A DNA stretch of 22,232 bases from a virus: IMG/VR virus record IMGVR_UViG_3300045923_000004, positions 1 through 22,232 of that record; one strand, 5' to 3'. This document shows positions 4,977 through 18,034 of the stretch, piece by piece. The first letter of the stretch is position 1, and the number at the start of each line of letters is the position of its first letter. The translations under genes were made by a program, and so were the position numbers. The notes under the pieces are model-generated. The model made no database searches. It was not told the DNA's origin and worked only from the letters and a program-made list of their open reading frames with translations.

Positions 4977-5158
4977 TGGCACGCAAGGTAGAATACATCG
5001 TCATAGACGATTACGGGGACGATTGGGAAGAAGGTTCAATTGCTTTCGGACCATTCGATACACGAGAAGAAGCAGATGAACAAGCCGAGGCAGAGAATTA
5101 TCACTCTGCTTCCATCGTCAAGGTGGTAAACGGTAAGCGTGTGGAGCAATTACGATGA
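4976..5158 (+). CDS. Small hypothetical protein, 60 aa
   Basis: A 60-residue, strongly acidic protein (VIDDYGDDWEEGS) ending with GPFDTREEADEQAEA and a beta-like SIVKVVNGK. The strand-helix-strand order vaguely resembles small SPOR-like or DUF folds, but this is too weak for a name. It overlaps the previous and next genes by one and four bases. Confidence 0.6.
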   Translation: MARKVEYIVIDDYGDDWEEGSIAFGPFDTREEADEQAEAENYHSASIVKVVNGKRVEQLR

Positions 5159-6269: not shown

Positions 6270-6472
6270 ACCATTATCATGATCAGTTTCCTTTCAGGAT
6301 TCAACTGAACCGGGATTACTATCCAAAGATATCGGAGATCTACCAGCAACTTCGTACGTTCGGTGAAATAGGCGGCGAGTGGACGGCATATGATATGTTC
6401 GGGTATCAGCATATCTACTTCAAGAAGGAAGAAGATTTGAAGAACTTCCAGGAATGGGTCAAGACGCTGTGA
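6266..6472 (+). CDS. Small hypothetical protein, 68 aa
   Basis: A 68-residue, aromatic-rich protein (MNHYHDQFPFRIQLNRDYY, FGYQHIYF) with a helical C-terminus. No known motif. The ATG overlaps the nuclease stop and its end overlaps the SET-domain gene. Confidence 0.65.
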   Translation: MNHYHDQFPFRIQLNRDYYPKISEIYQQLRTFGEIGGEWTAYDMFGYQHIYFKKEEDLKNFQEWVKTL

Positions 6473-6894
6473 AAGAGAAGAATTGGCAGGCTTGGAAGTA
6501 TCTCATGGTCAAAGACAATGAGCACGGCCAATCTGGTTTGTATGCGATGATTGATATTCCATACAAGACAGTCATAGGCGCATTTGGTGGCAAGATAGAA
6601 TGCGTCAGTCCTATACCTGAAAGGATCACCAACTCTATCATTCAGATTGCGATCAACCGAGAGCAGGACATACTTTTGATCCTGACCGGAGAGAAAGATT
6701 TTCGGTGGGAGGGTATCAGCTATATGAACCACTCCTGTGAACCTAACGCCAACATGGTTGCTCAAACTATAATCGTTGCCAATCGAGACATCAAACGTGG
6801 CGAAGAGATTACGGTAGACTACAACAGTTGGAACTTCATTGGTGAGGGTGTGCCTTGCTGGTGCCCAAAGTGTGATGGTAAGGTGACCATATGA
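6454..6894 (+). CDS. SET-domain protein lysine methyltransferase
   Basis: The 146-residue protein contains a near-complete SET domain with post-SET zinc site. Seen: the N-terminal SET strand GLYAMIDIPYKTVIGAFGG (28-46), the SAM-binding/catalytic YMNHSCEPN (90-98), EEITVDY (117-123, catalytic Tyr123), and post-SET C135-x-C137-x2-C140, which with C95 can bind one zinc. SET enzymes transfer methyl from S-adenosylmethionine to lysine side chains and are chiefly eukaryotic; compact versions occur in bacteria and in viruses such as chlorella viruses. The phage target is unknown; host ribosomal, nucleoid or RNA-polymerase proteins are candidates. Start is uncertain: ATG 6454, or GTG 6469 that overlaps the preceding TGA (GTGA). 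The next gene overlaps by four bases. Confidence 0.88.
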   Translation: MGQDAVKEKNWQAWKYLMVKDNEHGQSGLYAMIDIPYKTVIGAFGGKIECVSPIPERITNSIIQIAINREQDILLILTGEKDFRWEGISYMNHSCEPNANMVAQTIIVANRDIKRGEEITVDYNSWNFIGEGVPCWCPKCDGKVTI

Positions 6895-7265
6895 ACAATC
6901 CCATGGGACCTATGGAGTTCGAGGAGTGCCCAAAGTGCACTGGCCGTTCCCATGAAACATTGTGCGACAGCTGCAAACACAATAAGGAAACGATCAATTC
7001 TCTGTGGAAAATGATTCAGCAGCCCGAGGAAGCCTACCTTACTCCGCCACCCATAAAAGGCGACGTGGCGCTTCCGAACGGCTGCCATCTTTTCTGGCAT
7101 ATGACCGAACAGGGACGTGAGTATTTCTCAGACGAGATAGGCGGTGGTGTCTATGTCTGGCACACAGCGCTGGTAGATAGTGAAACACTGATAGCTGCAG
7201 TGAATCAAGAGAACATATTTCGCCGCCGAGAGTACGAGATAGAACAACGAAAAGCGAAAGGCTAA
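6891..7265 (+). CDS. Hypothetical protein with N-terminal zinc ribbon
   Basis: The 124-residue protein has CPKC (13-16) and CDSC (25-28), a plausible four-cysteine zinc site, followed by a domain with no recognised family (YLTPPPIKGDVALPNG, YFSDEIGGGVYVWHT) and a charged C-terminal helix. It overlaps the SET gene by four bases, so both are likely made together. It resembles phage proteins of unknown function with a ribbon used for protein or nucleic-acid contacts. Confidence 0.65.
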   Translation: MNNPMGPMEFEECPKCTGRSHETLCDSCKHNKETINSLWKMIQQPEEAYLTPPPIKGDVALPNGCHLFWHMTEQGREYFSDEIGGGVYVWHTALVDSETLIAAVNQENIFRRREYEIEQRKAKG

Positions 7266-7274: not shown

Positions 7275-7350
7275 CGATGTGTAGCTCAAACTGGCTAGAG
7301 CAGGATCTCTAAAATCCAAGATCAGGGTTCGATGCCCTGCACAACGGCCA
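7275..7350 (+). tRNA. tRNA with CUA (amber-reading) anticodon
   Basis: A cloverleaf can be folded by eye. Acceptor 7275-7281/7340-7346 has 6 of 7 pairs (A7277 opposes A7344). T8-A9 is followed by D stem GCTC/GAGC (7284-7287/7298-7301) with GG in the loop. The anticodon stem is GGAT/ATCC (7303-7306/7314-7317), loop CTCTAAA (7307-7313) with U33 and anticodon CTA at 7309-7311. The variable loop has five bases, and the T arm is CAGGG-TTCGATG-CCCTG (7323-7339). The discriminator is G and CCA is encoded (7348-7350). A CUA anticodon pairs with UAG, making this a suppressor-type tRNA. Oddities: only four clean anticodon-stem pairs and one acceptor mismatch, so activity is not certain. Charging amino acid cannot be told. 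Confidence 0.78.
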
Positions 7351-7366: not shown

Positions 7367-7828
7367 ATGCTAGTATCACTTGTCAAAGATCTTCATGACA
7401 CACGCACATCAGTCACCACGATTGATGAAGTTCATTTGCCAAATACGGCTGTGAACACTGGTCATACCACTCCACAGGGCTGGGCTATTTGGAGCATCGT
7501 TCCCGAGCACATCGAGCAATGGGGTAAGAAGGTTGCCGCTGAAGTCAAGGCAAAGGTAGAGGTCAAGGCCAACACCGTCGTCACTGAAGTCAAGACTGAA
7601 GTGAAGAAAGTCGAAGCAGAGGTTAAGGTTGCTCCAGTAAAGACTGAAGTTGCCAATGTTGCTGCTAAGGTCGAAACGGTAGCCAACACGGTTGCCACAG
7701 AAGTCAAGACTGAAGTGAAGAAGGTTGTTGCTGAAGTCAAGGCCGAAGCCAACACCGTCGTAACAGAAGTCAAAGCCGAGGCAGCTAAGGTTGTCACCGC
7801 AGTTGAGAACTTGGTCAAGAAGATCTAA
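7367..7828 (+). CDS. Repetitive amphipathic-helix protein (coiled-coil/LEA-like)
   Basis: The 153-residue product has a non-repetitive N-terminal part (1-52, containing GWAIWSIVPEHIEQWG) and a long Val/Lys/Glu/Ala-only helical region (53-153). The unit ANTVVTEVKTEVKKV or variants begins at residues 68, 106 and 128. The helix has a regular valine/alanine face and a Lys/Glu face, as in apolipoprotein, phasin or late-embryogenesis-abundant proteins. It may coat a surface, form a coiled-coil rod or stabilise proteins; no catalytic role is visible. AGGGGA precedes the ATG at a good distance. It lies just after the suppressor tRNA. Related only by composition, so no family is given. Confidence 0.75.
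   Translation: MLVSLVKDLHDTRTSVTTIDEVHLPNTAVNTGHTTPQGWAIWSIVPEHIEQWGKKVAAEVKAKVEVKANTVVTEVKTEVKKVEAEVKVAPVKTEVANVAAKVETVANTVATEVKTEVKKVVAEVKAEANTVVTEVKAEAAKVVTAVENLVKKI
7586..7722 (+). repeat. Internal DNA duplication in the helical-repeat gene
   Basis: The same 23-base string (GAAGTCAAGACTGAAGTGAA plus three bases) occurs at 7586-7608 and 7700-7722, a 114-base or 38-codon offset, with weaker related copies around them. Near identity at DNA level points to recent tandem duplication or repeat-mediated recombination. Confidence 0.8.
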
Positions 7829-7947: not shown

Positions 7948-8499
7948 ATGCCAGCATATTCTTATCTCTTGCACCATAAACCTACAAACACATTTTACTA
8001 CGGTGTTCGCTGGGCTAAAGATTGTCACCCAGATGAATTTTGGAGAACATATTTTACATCAAGTAAAAAGAACGTTCCATTACTTCGCACACTATTTGGT
8101 GATGATAGTTTCGAGTTTGAGATCCGGAGGGTATTCAAGTCTGGTAAGAAAGCGGCAGACTGGGAACACAAAGTATTGCGTAGAATGCGCGTATTGGATA
8201 AACCCGATCTTTGGTTGAATAGGACAACAAACACATCTTGGTTATATGATATAAATCCATTCAAAGGGAAACACCACTCAAACGAAACCAGGCAGCGTAT
8301 AGCCACCACTCTTGTTCAGAAAAGCATAAGACCGCCCAATACAAGGGGTATGACTCCTTGGAATAAGGGCATCCCACATTCAGAAGAACAAAAGAAGAAA
8401 ATGAGTGGAAAGAAGTGGATCAACAACGGTACTCTTGAGCGTAAAATACATAATGAAGAAAAGATACCGACCGGTTGGAAAAAAGGCAGAATGTTGTAG
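7948..8499 (+). CDS. GIY-YIG-type homing endonuclease with NUMOD3-like motifs
   Basis: The 183-residue protein starts with a phage variant of the GIY-YIG fold: YSYLLHHKPTNTFYYGVRWA (4-23), then W-x2-YFTSSKK, FEFEIRRVFKSGKKAADWEHKVLRR with a conserved glutamate (E73). The C-terminus has two NUMOD3-like DNA-binding units, NPFKGKHHSNETRQRIA and GMTPWNKGIPHSEEQKKKMSG, plus a KWINNG element. Such free-standing endonucleases cut DNA lacking the gene and spread by gene conversion. It sits between the helical-repeat gene and the PTH2/tmRNA pair; TAGGAG precedes the ATG. The 119 bases before it have no gene longer than 12 codons. It ends in TAG; read-through would add nine residues. Confidence 0.8.
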   Translation: MPAYSYLLHHKPTNTFYYGVRWAKDCHPDEFWRTYFTSSKKNVPLLRTLFGDDSFEFEIRRVFKSGKKAADWEHKVLRRMRVLDKPDLWLNRTTNTSWLYDINPFKGKHHSNETRQRIATTLVQKSIRPPNTRGMTPWNKGIPHSEEQKKKMSGKKWINNGTLERKIHNEEKIPTGWKKGRML

Positions 8500-8531
8500 A
8501 ATTACATCAGAGGACCTCCCTCGTTGTAATT
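8500..8531. terminator. Inverted repeat, possible terminator or operator
   Basis: AATTACA (8500-8506) pairs perfectly with TGTAATT (8525-8531), and an inner GAGG/CCTC pair extends the hairpin. There is no T-run, and the right arm touches the -35 of promoter copy 3, so it may instead be an operator. Confidence 0.4.
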
Positions 8532-8558
8532 GACTCTTACGAAAGATTCAGTTATAAT
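8530..8558 (+). promoter_or_regulatory. Phage early-type promoter, ACTCTTA-N13-TATAAT (copy 3)
   Basis: TTGACT (8530-8535) followed by CTTA, and TATAAT at 8553-8558, give the best -35 match of the set with a 17-base spacer. Transcription should start near 8565, ten bases before the ATG of the PTH2-like gene. Confidence 0.78.
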
Positions 8559-8574
8559 AGATGGAGACTCAAAA

Positions 8575-9279
8575 ATGATGAATTTCAAAGCAGCATTCAA
8601 AGCGTGTGCCGACGCCAAGGATATTTCCAGCGTTGACATCGTACAATACGCTATCCTTCGCGCCATGAAAGCGAAGACGGCTCAGACTATTGAGGACCGT
8701 ATCAAGATAGCATCAACCTTTATCCGCCGGCACTTTCGTTCTGTGAAGAATAGAAAGATGCTCGATAATGGGGTTGATCCAGAAAGAGCGGTTAGGAGAG
8801 CGACCGAAATTACTAAGAGTGCTAAGGTCATCTGTGGCATTCTAGAAAAGAGTATGTTTACTGATGAACGTGAGCGCATCCTCTACAAAAACATCGCGGT
8901 GGCTTTATATGAGCAGTACAAGATCCCTGCGGATCTTTACACCAGACATTACGTCTACATCTTCGTGCGTCAAGATATGACGCCGGAGTATCAGCTAGTC
9001 CAGGCTAGCCATGCGGCGGCTCGCATGGGACAACGTCTAGGATCCAATGGCATTGACCAGGGCAAGTTTGATGAGTTGTATTTCAGTGTGATTGGTGTCC
9101 CTGATCTTCATGGTCTTGCCAAAGCATTGGAAGACTTCAAGCAGCGCGGTATCAAGACCTATCCGTTCATTGAGCCAGACATCGGAAACGTGATGACAGC
9201 ATTCGCTTCCGACCCGGTTTGGTCACATGATCGTAAGGGATTGCTATCTTACAAGAGATTGGTCTTCAAGAAGGACTAA
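8575..9279 (+). CDS. Peptidyl-tRNA hydrolase 2-like protein
   Basis: The 234-residue protein has an N-terminal helical part (1-120) of unknown role and a C-terminal domain resembling the PTH2 fold: YVYIFVRQDMTPEYQLVQAS (126-145), HAAARMGQ (146-153), a strand YFSVIGVPD, helix LHGLAKALEDFKQRGI, and FIEPDIGNVMTAFA. PTH2 enzymes cut peptides off tRNAs released from stalled ribosomes. The assignment rests on pattern memory, so catalytic ability is unproven. The ATG at 8575 is chosen (or 8578) because it follows GGAG by eight bases and lies downstream of the promoter; frame-open codons before it lie inside the promoter. Its stop is directly followed by the tmRNA gene. Confidence 0.65.
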   Translation: MMNFKAAFKACADAKDISSVDIVQYAILRAMKAKTAQTIEDRIKIASTFIRRHFRSVKNRKMLDNGVDPERAVRRATEITKSAKVICGILEKSMFTDERERILYKNIAVALYEQYKIPADLYTRHYVYIFVRQDMTPEYQLVQASHAAARMGQRLGSNGIDQGKFDELYFSVIGVPDLHGLAKALEDFKQRGIKTYPFIEPDIGNVMTAFASDPVWSHDRKGLLSYKRLVFKKD

Positions 9280-9283
9280 ATAG

Positions 9284-9567
9284 GTTTGAATGATTGTAAA
9301 CGCCTGACTAAAGGCATGTTGGACTGGGGTTCGATTCCCCACGGTTCCACCAAATTTCAGGACCATGCTAGAGGGTCCATTATGGGGCCGATCGGTTTCG
9401 ACAGCGTGAGTAATACACCAAGTGCAATCCGGTATGCTACGACCGTAACAGTGCAAAACCATAAATGCATCTAACGATGACATCTATGACACCGTAGAGT
9501 TGGCTCTAGCAGCCTAACCCTCGGGTCTGAGTTTCGGCCGCTTCCTTGTAAACAGAATAAGCGGCCA
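9284..9567 (+). ncRNA. ssrA: Circularly permuted two-piece tmRNA
   Basis: The tmRNA 3' (acceptor) piece comes first, ending in CCA at 9350-9352, and the 5' (coding) piece starts at 9384. Acceptor stem GGGGCCG (9384-9390) pairs with CGGTTCC (9342-9348) in all seven positions, including G3-U70, the alanyl-tRNA synthetase identity pair, with discriminator A9349. The T arm is TGGGG-TTCGATT-CCCCA (9325-9341). P2 pairs CAGCGTG (9402-9408) with CATGTTG (9315-9321), leaving the GAC linker as in E. coli. GACTAAAGGCATG and CCAAGTGCA match conserved tmRNA segments. A 31-base spacer (9353-9383) with a GGACC/GGTCC hairpin would be removed. The tag frame is at 9467-9517, followed by a GGCCGCTT/AAGCGGCC hairpin (9536-9566). 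Ends are approximate. It would rescue stalled ribosomes by trans-translation. Confidence 0.92.
9467..9517 (+). CDS. tmRNA proteolysis-tag reading frame
   Basis: The internal frame resumes at GCA (9467) and reads ASNDDIYDTVELALAA before TAA (9515-9517). The AND-like start and LAA end match known tags; the C-terminal LAA is what ClpX recognises. The resume codon is inferred from the conserved context upstream and from the frame being open to an LAA-stop. Confidence 0.85.
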   Translation, partial: ASNDDIYDTVELALAA

Positions 9568-9590
9568 CTCTTTAACTTAATCAGGCCAGT

Positions 9591-9619
9591 TTTACTCTTA
9601 CAGTTTCCAGGCGTATAAT
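9591..9619 (+). promoter_or_regulatory. Phage early-type promoter, ACTCTTA-N13-TATAAT (copy 4)
   Basis: TTTACT (9591-9596) plus CTTA, and TATAAT at 9614-9619, repeat the same geometry. The predicted start near 9626 gives a 30-base leader with AAGGAAAT before the ATG at 9656, so this copy drives a conventional leadered mRNA. Confidence 0.75.
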
Positions 9620-10644: not shown

Positions 10645-10907
10645 AATCGATCATCCACGTCAATGCCCAGCTGATCAAGCGCAATATTAAGAACAAGACC
10701 ACTCATCCGGTGGTCCGCGTTCAGCAGGGTTCCAAACAACGTTACTGCTCGGAAGCCATCATAGATGGTCCTAGCAGGATCGTATACAGTCCAGAGCGAC
10801 CGCTAAGTTGTGGCGCCAGGCTTTGGATTGAGACAGAGGCAGACGTCACTCTCGTTGACGAGACAACCTACGCAAAGATGCGGGAGATCATGAATGATAA
10901 GAATTGA
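10641..10907 (+). CDS. Hypothetical protein, 88 aa
   Basis: An 88-residue basic, beta-rich protein (IIHVNAQLIKRNIKN, VVRVQQGSKQRYCSEA, IDGPSRIVYSPERPL). The composition is that of a small beta-barrel or RNA-binding protein, but no motif is decisive. It overlaps the preceding gene by four bases and GMP reductase by 14 bases. Confidence 0.65.
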   Translation: MKSIIHVNAQLIKRNIKNKTTHPVVRVQQGSKQRYCSEAIIDGPSRIVYSPERPLSCGARLWIETEADVTLVDETTYAKMREIMNDKN

Positions 10908-12030
10908 TCCGGCTCCTAAGCTCGATTATTCCCAGGTGATGTTGGTTCCCCGTTATAGCCAAGATGGGCCCTCATCCCGCAATAGTGTATACCTAAAAAA
11001 CAAGGATTACATCATCCCTGTAATCGCCGCCAACATGGATGGTGTCGGTACATTTGAGATGGCCCGCGAACTTTGTCGCTGGGACTTGATGACGGCACTC
11101 CAGAAGCACTACACGTTAGAAGAACTGTTAGAGTTCTATCTTCATACTCTTGAAGAAGGCTATACCAAGAACGTGGTCTATTCCATGGGGATCAATCAAC
11201 CTGATTTGATCAAATGGAAAAACTTCTATGAAGAGTTAACGGCTCGCGGTCACGTTATTCCTACGGTCTGTGTTGATGTGGCTAATGGCTATACAGAAGC
11301 AACGGCGGATGCCATACGCTGGATCAAGTCTTCATTCAACACAACCATCATGGCTGGTAATGTGGTCACCAGAGAGGGAGTCTTCCGTCTCGCCGAGGCC
11401 GGTGCCAACATAATCAAGATTGGTGTGGGTCCGGGCTCTGTTTGTACGACCCGTAAGCTGACAGGTACAGGTTATCCTCAATTTAGCGCAGTACTGGAAT
11501 GCGTCCAGGCAGCCAAGGCATGGGTAGAGAAGTTCCCATTCCCTATTACACATGGACCTCGTGTGATGCAACCTCCCAAGATTGTAGCAGACGGTGGTAT
11601 TACATGTCCTGGTGATGTGGCCAAAGCCTTTGCGGCCGGTGCCGATTACGTCATGATCGGCGGTATGTTCGCTGGTCATGATGAGGGTGGTGGCACGCCA
11701 TGTGATGCCCTAGGCAATGAGAAATACATTCAAGGTGCTACCGGTACGATTTTCAACTATGCGCCAATGTCTCATCGTAAGTTTTATGGTATGGCCAGCA
11801 AGTGTGCTCAAGATAAACACAATGGCGGTGTGGCTGAGTATCGAGCCAGTGAAGGTAAAGAGGTCGTGGTGCCCTATAGGGGCAAGGTCTCCAACACTGT
11901 AAAGGAATTGCTGGGCGGTCTACGGAGCGCCTGTGCCTATCAGGGATGCCAGCATCTAGAGGACATAAGTAGTGATGTCCAATTCATCCAGGTAGCCAAC
12001 CAGACAAATAATATCTTTGGGGCATCATAA
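10894..12030 (+). CDS. guaC: GMP reductase (IMPDH/GMPR family)
   Basis: The 378-residue TIM-barrel enzyme reduces GMP with NADPH to IMP and ammonia. GMPR-type features are [10 protein letters not shown] near the N-terminus, the catalytic loop [20 protein letters not shown] (177-196) with Cys184 (E. coli GuaC Cys186), [26 protein letters not shown] and [18 protein letters not shown] followed by [10 protein letters not shown]. The loop reads [10 protein letters not shown] as in GMPR rather than the IMPDH form, and there is no CBS insert. It fits the E. coli enzyme length (347) with short extensions. It would shift purines from guanine to adenine nucleotides during infection. The start overlaps the upstream stop region; the stop overlaps the next ATG. 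Confidence 0.92.
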
Positions 12031-17019: not shown

Positions 17020-17237
17020 TAGCCTCTGCCTGTCTTCTTAGCCGCTCTTCTAGCCGCGTTCTCGAGCTTGATCTTCTCATTCTCAGCCGCTACCGTGCTC
17101 GTTATCATAGCAACGTAAGCGTCCCGTTCCCAGGGCATCATATCATCAAATCTAGTAAAGTCAATTTTTTGATGATAAAGCAAACTGAAGTTCAATTTGA
17201 ATTGAGCTTCCAAAGTATCATGACAAAAGCCTACACG
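17019..17237 (-). CDS. -1 frame extension of the gp26-like tail assembly protein
   Basis: This frame is open from the slippery site to TAA at 17021-17019 and adds 72 residues to frame-0 residue 266, giving a 338-residue fusion. It contains FDDMMPWERDAYVAMI followed by a charged helix (ENEKIKLENAARRAAKK), the pattern seen in frameshift extensions of tail chaperones. There is no ATG-type start with a Shine-Dalgarno at its head; only a TTG at 17213 could start it alone, so translation by frameshift is favoured. Its stop overlaps the tape-measure ATG. Confidence 0.7.
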   Translation of the reverse strand, partial: RVGFCHDTLEAQFKLNFSLLYHQKIDFTRFDDMMPWERDAYVAMITSTVAAENEKIKLENAARRAAKKTGRG

Positions 17238-18034
17238 AAAAAATCTTGGATTCCCTCCAAGACGATTTTGTGATCATAGCCGCACTTGGCGCACTTGATT
17301 CCTGTTTCCAATCTCGTCTGGGGCGCGTTCTTAATAAACTCGCGAATCTTTTCGTATTTATCACCAGGTAGTGCAAGGAGGAATTCTTTCAACTCCTGCT
17401 CTGTACAATCGCTGGCTGGATAGGCACTATCCTTATCATAGATCACATCCAAACAGTTAGATGCGACCACCAACTCTACATCGTTCTCAGGGACACCCTG
17501 GAGCTTACGGAATAGGTCGAAGGTTGGAAACTTCATCCTGACACCGATATCATCAGTAAACTTGATCTGAAGCTGGGTGTCTTTATTGACAACAGGGATG
17601 TTCAGGAAGTCAACCGGTACGTCTAGCACCATACCACAGTCTACCATTTCAGGTGGAGCACTAGGATCTGGTGGAGGAGCATCAACCAGTGTCATTACAC
17701 CATTGGACATAACCTTTACAGGCTTTGGCTTCTTGACGACTTTGTTCTTACATTGAAAATGAGTCGTTCCTCTTTCACCGATACTTCGAGCACGGAGAGC
17801 CAAGAAGATCATCTCCAGGTCGATCATCGCCATCTGGTCTACGTTGAACTCACCAATGACGCAGTTGGAAATAATCTGCTTCAGCGATTCGGTTGTAGTA
17901 CCAATATCACCAGCACTAACGGCCATGAGCATTAGCTTCTCTTCACGGACTGTGAATGGGCGAATCTTGATGGGATCTTTCTGGGAAAGTAGTTGGACAT
18001 CATATATTGGATATGCTATTTGTGGTAGCTTCAT
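17231..18034 (-). CDS. 26: Baseplate/tail assembly protein, T4 gp26-like
   Basis: The 267-residue protein resembles the T4_baseplate family (T4 gp26, 208): MKLPQIAYPIYDVQLLSQKD at the N-terminus, IKIRPFTVREEKLMLMA, IGEFNVDQMAMIDLEMIFLALRARSIGE, then CGMVLDVPVDF and a central Cys-rich part. Near the C-terminus CAKCGYDHKIV suggests a small zinc or beta unit. In T4 the protein is needed for baseplate hub assembly. It ends in TAG, two codons after a -1 slippery site, so part of the product is probably extended by 72 residues. Read-through of the TAG would instead give 12 residues. The upstream sequence GGTGA precedes the ATG. Confidence 0.82.
   Translation of the reverse strand: MKLPQIAYPIYDVQLLSQKDPIKIRPFTVREEKLMLMAVSAGDIGTTTESLKQIISNCVIGEFNVDQMAMIDLEMIFLALRARSIGERGTTHFQCKNKVVKKPKPVKVMSNGVMTLVDAPPPDPSAPPEMVDCGMVLDVPVDFLNIPVVNKDTQLQIKFTDDIGVRMKFPTFDLFRKLQGVPENDVELVVASNCLDVIYDKDSAYPASDCTEQELKEFLLALPGDKYEKIREFIKNAPQTRLETGIKCAKCGYDHKIVLEGIQDFFV
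17237..17258 (-). promoter_or_regulatory. Programmed -1 frameshift signal
   Basis: On the minus strand, GAT TTT TTC GTG TAG contains the slippery heptamer T-TTT-TTC (17243-17237), two codons before the frame-0 stop. GGAGGG (17258-17253) lies nine bases upstream of it, the placement of the Shine-Dalgarno stimulator in dnaX. A hairpin GAAG-TCAAT/ATTGA-CTTC (17210-17187) lies 26 bases downstream, rather far to act as a stimulator. Confidence 0.78.

Follow-up and report, generated by a model that had tools for sequence, protein, structure and literature searches.

Why should a phage that ends its own genes with TAG at ordinary rates also carry a transfer RNA (tRNA) predicted to read this codon? 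The question is raised by positions 7275–7350 of the virus record IMGVR_UViG_3300045923_000004, whose whole 22,232-base stretch is called the window here. The window is 99.7% identical to bases 29,848–52,077 of a 76-kb record (G1) and its genes are T4-like (RNA ligase, AAA clamp-loader-like ATPase, baseplate hub); no isolated close relative of the window phage was found at the DNA level. The reading we put forward, and hold with even confidence for and against, is that the tRNA is a natural amber suppressor, tuned and kept by selection, which sits in a read-through and ribosome-rescue neighbourhood of large T4-like phages.

Identity and conservation of the CUA tRNA

ARAGORN predicted a tRNA with a CUA anticodon whose boundaries are exactly 7275–7350 on the plus strand; the CCA end is encoded, the discriminator is G73, and the anticodon CTA lies at 7309–7311 (+), position 35 of the tRNA gene. 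The Rfam model RF00005 matched over all its 71 positions with 41.1 bits (gathering score 29, E = 9.5e-06). The anticodon loop has seven bases, C32 U33 C34 U35 A36 A37 A38, and both results bear out an earlier note on this DNA, which had read a CUA anticodon with U33 in the loop CTCTAAA. G73 and U35 hint at Gln as the amino acid that the tRNA may carry. The thermodynamic fold alone was no better than that of shuffled sequences (z = –1.11) and is uninformative as proof; with the fold energy at chance level, the case for a tRNA rests on the covariance score and on conservation. The label “Pyl” given by ARAGORN is merely its name for a CUA anticodon. The pyrrolysine tRNA, pylT, has a three-base variable loop and a very short D loop, and is devoid of the ordinary D- and T-loop motifs; this identity was ruled out, as the D and T arms are ordinary in the ARAGORN drawing.

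Eight tRNAs of the family (from the window, L003, G3, L006, and four further relatives) were compared by position, and all eight have the CUA anticodon. The pairs 28-42, 29-41, and 30-40 are intact in every one of them, with three to five pair types, and the seven acceptor pairs are intact in six to eight of the eight, each being formed by three or four different pair types. Compensatory changes thus occurred in the acceptor, anticodon, and T stems around an unchanged anticodon. As a decaying passenger would not show such a pattern, the CUA tRNA of the window is a maintained gene. As an amber suppressor it would be expressed and charged, and would read UAG in the cell. A relative (G13/L152) has the loop CCCTAAA, with the CUA anticodon but without U33.

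The window tRNA has two flaws, an A3-A70 mismatch in the acceptor stem and an anticodon stem of only four base pairs. At the top of the latter, nucleotide 27 (A, position 7302, +) is opposed to nucleotide 43 (A, position 7318, +), so that this pair is unpinned.

The 27-43 pair in phage CUA tRNAs

To compare this pair among phages, we took as samples the tRNAs found by pattern scans for CUA and CCA anticodons; this pattern constrains the D arm and A39 but leaves positions 27 and 43 free. Among the matches listed, to which all scan counts in this section refer, 27-43 was a Watson–Crick pair in 19 of 85 phage CUA tRNAs compared to 80 of 100 pattern-matched Trp-CCA tRNAs (Fisher’s test, p = 2e-15); in the phage CUA tRNAs it was usually broken or G-U. 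The same bias appeared when distinct CUA tRNAs were set against the other tRNAs of the same loci (24/86 vs 347/461), and after clustering (19/57 CUA clusters vs 309/404 others). At pairs 28-42 to 30-40 no comparable loss was seen in the CUA tRNAs (85 vs 100). Pair 31-39 was broken in 20 of the 85 CUA tRNAs (L170–L288) and in none of the 100 CCA tRNAs.

In the subset of these distinct tRNAs whose loci had been retrieved through protein homology or location, 27-43 was Watson–Crick in 2 of 12 CUA tRNAs and in 146 of 187 others; within the window family it was so in none of eight. Isolated phages showed the feature as well: the pair is A-C in XacN1 (twice) and G-A in DLP_5, whereas 21 of 30 other tRNAs in the stretches read there are Watson–Crick. 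Recoded phages may be the source of some of the CUA loci; the ratio that points to TAG as a sense codon was raised in just a few of 103 CUA loci. According to section 20 of PMC13092985, an unpinned 27-43 pair raised UAG read-through by a CUA tRNA-Thr, allowed a CUA tRNA-Trp to read UAA, and also raised tRNA-Trp read-through at UGA.

The neighbourhood of the tRNA

Downstream of the tRNA, the open reading frame (ORF) at 8530–9279 (+), with its likely true start at ATG 8575, encodes a protein with a C-terminal fold resembling peptidyl-tRNA hydrolase 2 (PTH2), the domain beginning at about 8944. The AlphaFold model, built on an alignment (A3) of 11 relatives, had a mean predicted local distance difference test score of 82.4, and in Foldseek the best 14 of 260 PDB matches were all PTH2-family structures. 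PTH2 emerged from the fold search; a sequence-profile search of the PDB with the family returned no PTH2 match, PF01981 was found in 2 of 11 members and below the Pfam cut-off (best E = 0.0031), and the window protein itself matched neither PF01981 nor any clear Pfam family. The catalytic site of PTH2 consists of Lys, Asp, and Thr. The invariant D202 and T208 of the phage family are presumably the Asp and Thr of this site, while the Lys position is occupied by Gln, or by Arg in G19; because of this replacement we call the protein PTH2-like only, and not a proven enzyme.

A permuted, two-piece transfer-messenger RNA (tmRNA) with the tag ASNDDIYDTVELALAA follows at 9260–9608 (+), identified by ARAGORN and by a full-length RF04321 match above the cut-off (129.2 bits, core 9292–9517) together with the tag ORF. 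The tag ends in TAA, not TAG (9515–9517, +), and the tag ORFs read in nine records all stop at TAA or TGA, so that suppression of UAG would not lengthen the tag. A permuted tmRNA was present in all 17 family records searched.

The order CUA tRNA, PTH2-like gene, tmRNA on one strand was found in all nine family records in which ARAGORN detected the CUA tRNA there. In these records 156–2,524 bases separate the tRNA from the PTH2 homology and 13–595 bases the latter from the tmRNA, with 516–3,632 bases from tRNA to tmRNA. The tRNA nearest to the PTH2-like gene was the CUA one in 10 of 11 records (exception, G19), although it is one among 37 tRNAs in G1, 39 in G3, 28 in G12, and 33 in G16.

The linkage was also tested in 34 loci found by a search with the PTH2-like family, with at most 4.5 kb on each side; four pairs of near-duplicates are among them (L489/L490, L493/L494, L499/L502, and L516/L517). 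A stop-reading tRNA lay near the PTH2-like gene in 23 of the 34 loci, with CUA in 20 (17 by ARAGORN; L496, L497, and L501 by an Rfam match or from the loop sequence) and UCA in three. Of the 11 loci without one, four (L495, L500, L506, and L507) start no more than 412 bases from the PTH2 match. In 21 of the 34 loci there was a tmRNA. In L511 and L518 the CUA tRNA lies 16 and 18 bases beyond the PTH2-like match, and L503 and L509 hold all three elements in a different order. As a control, 80 loci of at most 16 kb found by a PD-(D/E)XK gene contained a CUA tRNA in five cases, four of which belong to the window family.

The opal-reading UCA tRNAs lie in L499 (4296–4370), L502, and L513 (1838–1915 and 1974–2049), and ARAGORN labels them SeC, though they are only 75–78 nucleotides long. 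In L511 an odd-loop tRNA (5040–5113), given the four-base anticodon “aata” by ARAGORN, stands directly after a CUA tRNA within an array of some 30 tRNAs.

Over unrelated phages, a general co-occurrence of CUA tRNA and tmRNA is suggestive and confounded by record length: among the matches listed, a permuted tmRNA scored above the cut-off in 18 of 50 CUA-pattern records and in 4 of 50 matched CCA-pattern records. Of the tmRNA-bearing records among the same matches, 5 of 18 with CUA (two of the five near-identical) and 2 of 4 with CCA have the tRNA and the tmRNA within 5 kb of each other.

Such a tRNA might also be a passenger, an array tRNA whose anticodon became CUA by drift and whose suppression is mild enough to be tolerated. 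Several phages of this kind carry 28–56 tRNAs, and the tRNA has mismatches in its acceptor and anticodon stems. Discriminators vary among phage CUA tRNAs (mostly A or G, some T, among the 85 matches listed), the nearest isotypes within the family differ (Asn, Gly, and Arg), and no common parental isotype was found. The position of the gene speaks against this explanation. In G1 the 36 other tRNAs all lie within 11.5–21.5 kb, with the CUA tRNA by itself at 37.1 kb; in the 167-kb record G3 most of the 38 others lie at 109–119 kb, with a solitary CUA tRNA at 95 kb. Together with the fixed anticodon and compensating stems over wide divergence, and with the recurrent linkage to the PTH2-like gene, this makes a passenger unlikely in our judgment.

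Stop codon usage and the question of read-through

Among 36 hand-listed genes of the window, 21 end in TAA, 12 in TGA, and three in TAG. In 15 records, stop codons were tallied in conserved genes, i.e., those supported by homology, with eleven records counted as carriers of a CUA tRNA and four as non-carriers. Carriers ended 70 of 888 genes with TAG, and the others 17 of 319. One non-carrier, G16, was later seen to hold a degenerate CUA tRNA; with this record moved to the carriers, the tally became 79/1037 vs 8/170. In these conserved genes no clear avoidance of TAG by carriers was found. Avoidance is possible in G19 alone (G019, a 350-kb record, loci L344–L361), which has two CUA tRNAs and ends 1 of 161 conserved genes with TAG.

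In the 15 records, no homologue was found to run across an in-frame TAG of a conserved gene on its coding strand. Same-frame ORF pairs that have a stop between them and match a single homologue across both amounted to 19 rows for TAA, TAG, and TGA together, and from strand and coordinates we judged the TAG cases to be antisense frames or chance. Mean ORF length scarcely rose when TAG was read as sense. Wholesale recoding of TAG (code 15) was therefore rejected, with TAG stops at ordinary rates and no in-frame TAG in conserved genes. A phage release factor as recoding machinery was likewise rejected: PF00472 was found in 6 of 10 records, yet in short frames (L289–L292; G003 110868–111053; G009 1915–2082) and not in full RF1 or RF2. 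These short RF-1-domain proteins, 132–191 amino acids long with a GGQ motif, are possibly further ribosome-rescue factors.

Programmed read-through, which would give C-terminally extended versions of one or a few phage proteins late in infection, is a second alternative. Phage recoding timed to late genes is known (PMC10746230), and the baseplate-hub gene (gp26-like, PHROG 150, 17231–18034, minus strand) has TAG as its stop in G3 as well as in the window phage. Its in-frame extension, however, is 12 amino acids in the window and 6 in G3. In G1 and G3 together, 12 conserved genes end in TAG, and no in-frame extension behind them is conserved; the median extensions behind TAG, 12 codons in G1 and 8 in G3, are about as short as after TAA and TGA. 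In the 15 records, 87 conserved genes end in TAG, and for none of them did the sequence past the stop align well to a homologue. Most TAG-ended genes have homologues that end in TAA or TGA. G1 and most of the records are fragments, so that a target could lie outside them; nevertheless, we consider programmed read-through improbable.

The earlier note can be judged against these results. Its CUA tRNA is real, its count of three window genes ending in TAG was correct, and its view that wholesale recoding is not seen here agrees with the window, with the 70 of 888 genes in carriers, and with the lack of in-frame TAG in conserved genes. Timed read-through, one of the two roles with which it linked phage amber suppressors, found no support for any particular gene, as no conserved extension behind TAG was found in G1 and G3 or in the 15 records, and the note had overlooked the linkage to the PTH2-like gene and tmRNA as well as the weak 27-43 pair.

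A non-decoding role would make the element a processing signal in the shape of a tRNA, or a decoy that titrates a nuclease or synthetase of the host. The gene lies 9 bases downstream of the ORF 6891–7265 and 16 bases upstream of the ORF 7367–7828, so that tRNA processing would cut the message between them. Such a role does not require a constant CUA anticodon, and three PTH2 loci carry UCA, another stop-reading anticodon; we regard it as distinctly unlikely. That the host itself gives UAG a sense meaning, which the phage tRNA merely follows, is extremely improbable, since TAG serves as a stop at ordinary frequency in the phages' own genes.

A proposed role in translation termination

We return to the natural suppressor as the preferred reading. 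It would belong to large T4-like phages of one lineage, whose genetic code is otherwise standard. The weak 27-43 pair would strengthen its reading of UAG, and perhaps, at lower efficiency, of UAA, so that during infection some ribosomes would pass the UAG terminators of host messages, phage messages, or both. Run-off or stalled ribosomes and dropped-off peptidyl-tRNAs might then be handled by the phage tmRNA and the PTH2-like protein encoded just downstream. That these parts stand side by side is as expected if the phage lets ribosomes pass stops and must handle the consequences, and they may be functionally coupled.

Several observations weigh against this proposal. The window copy of the tRNA has the A3-A70 mismatch. 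In distant PTH2 loci (L503, L509, L511, L514, L516 = L517, and L518) the 27-43 pair is Watson–Crick in 4 of 6 CUA tRNAs, and by eye it is so in L496 and L497 too. CUA records are longer, and at lengths of at least 100 kb a tmRNA was found, among the matches listed, in 13 of 34 CUA and 1 of 10 CCA records. TAG stops are not clearly avoided in most CUA carriers, so that suppression must be weak, brief, or harmless, and no target gene for read-through was found in G1 and G3 or in the 15 records. Enzymatic activity of the PTH2-like protein is doubtful, with Gln or Arg at the Lys position. SmpB was found in none of the 11 records examined, and the tmRNA therefore needs SmpB of the host.

A bolder version is conceivable, though we lean against it: a stop-reading tRNA (CUA, sometimes UCA), the PTH2-like protein, and the permuted tmRNA could form a “termination-override” module, a device for taking over the cell. 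The tRNA, tuned by its unpinned 27-43 pair, would weaken termination at UAG, perhaps also at UAA, across the infected cell, and the rescue parts would keep ribosomes free for phage messages. If true, phages would alter the termination step itself with their own code unchanged. Several phage papers leave the purpose of a target-less CUA tRNA open, and the linkage and the 27-43 signature make the question testable; the signature could moreover help to separate working suppressor tRNAs from passengers.

Other genes of the window

Between the tRNA and the PTH2-like gene lie two ORFs on the plus strand. The first (7367–7828) encodes a repetitive, coiled-coil-like protein without a Pfam family; the second (7948–8499, PF07460) is NUMOD3 homing-endonuclease-like, ends in TAG, and is probably a mobile insertion within the neighbourhood. 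The window also encodes a SET-domain protein (6454–6894, PF00856, E = 1.3e-12) and an IMP dehydrogenase/GMP reductase-like protein (10894–12030, PF00478, E = 3.3e-60), the latter kept in relatives.

Comparison with known systems

XacN1, RsoM2USA, and Summit/DLP_5 resemble the window phage in being large, carrying a CUA tRNA, and using TAG stops normally. The tRNA is described as target-less in XacN1 and Summit, with presumed targets only in RsoM2USA (PMC5852040, PMC8504454, PMC9022506); in the passages on these phages there is no mention of a neighbouring tmRNA or of the 27-43 feature. The CUA tRNAs of XacN1 and DLP_5 share the non-Watson–Crick 27-43 pair with the window tRNA. As in the window, the two CUA tRNAs of XacN1 (36,047–36,205) lie about 1 kb upstream of a tmRNA on the same strand; unlike the window phage, XacN1 has no PTH2-like match within its first 50 kb. 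This permuted tmRNA of XacN1 (L364, 37,201–37,621), with the tag ANANTFDYALAA, lies in an unannotated stretch.

The TAG-recoded (code 15) Lak and crAss-like phages are likewise large and have a CUA tRNA, but TAG occurs inside many of their genes, whereas in the window family no conserved gene was found to contain TAG in frame. The two-piece tmRNA in a myophage is shared by Melnitz and other aquatic phages, and the part of the Melnitz account consulted, unlike the window, makes no mention of a suppressor tRNA (PMC9004378). That suppressor tRNAs create non-stop ribosomes which are handled by tmRNA has been reported (Ueda 2002, cited in a passage of PMC3985003). In the open-licence full-text literature, represented mostly by titles and abstract openings, we recognised no description of a neighbourhood of suppressor tRNA, PTH2, and tmRNA or of a 27-43 bias in phage CUA tRNAs.

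The CUA suppressor derived from E. coli tRNA-Trp is su7. In the section of PMC13092985 cited above, 27-43 mutants of the E. coli CUA tRNA-Trp, and tRNA-Thr2 with its natural G27-A43, have a disturbed top pair like that of the window tRNA. The E. coli CUA tRNAs with an altered 27-43 pair are laboratory constructs, whereas the window tRNA and its relatives are natural phage genes.
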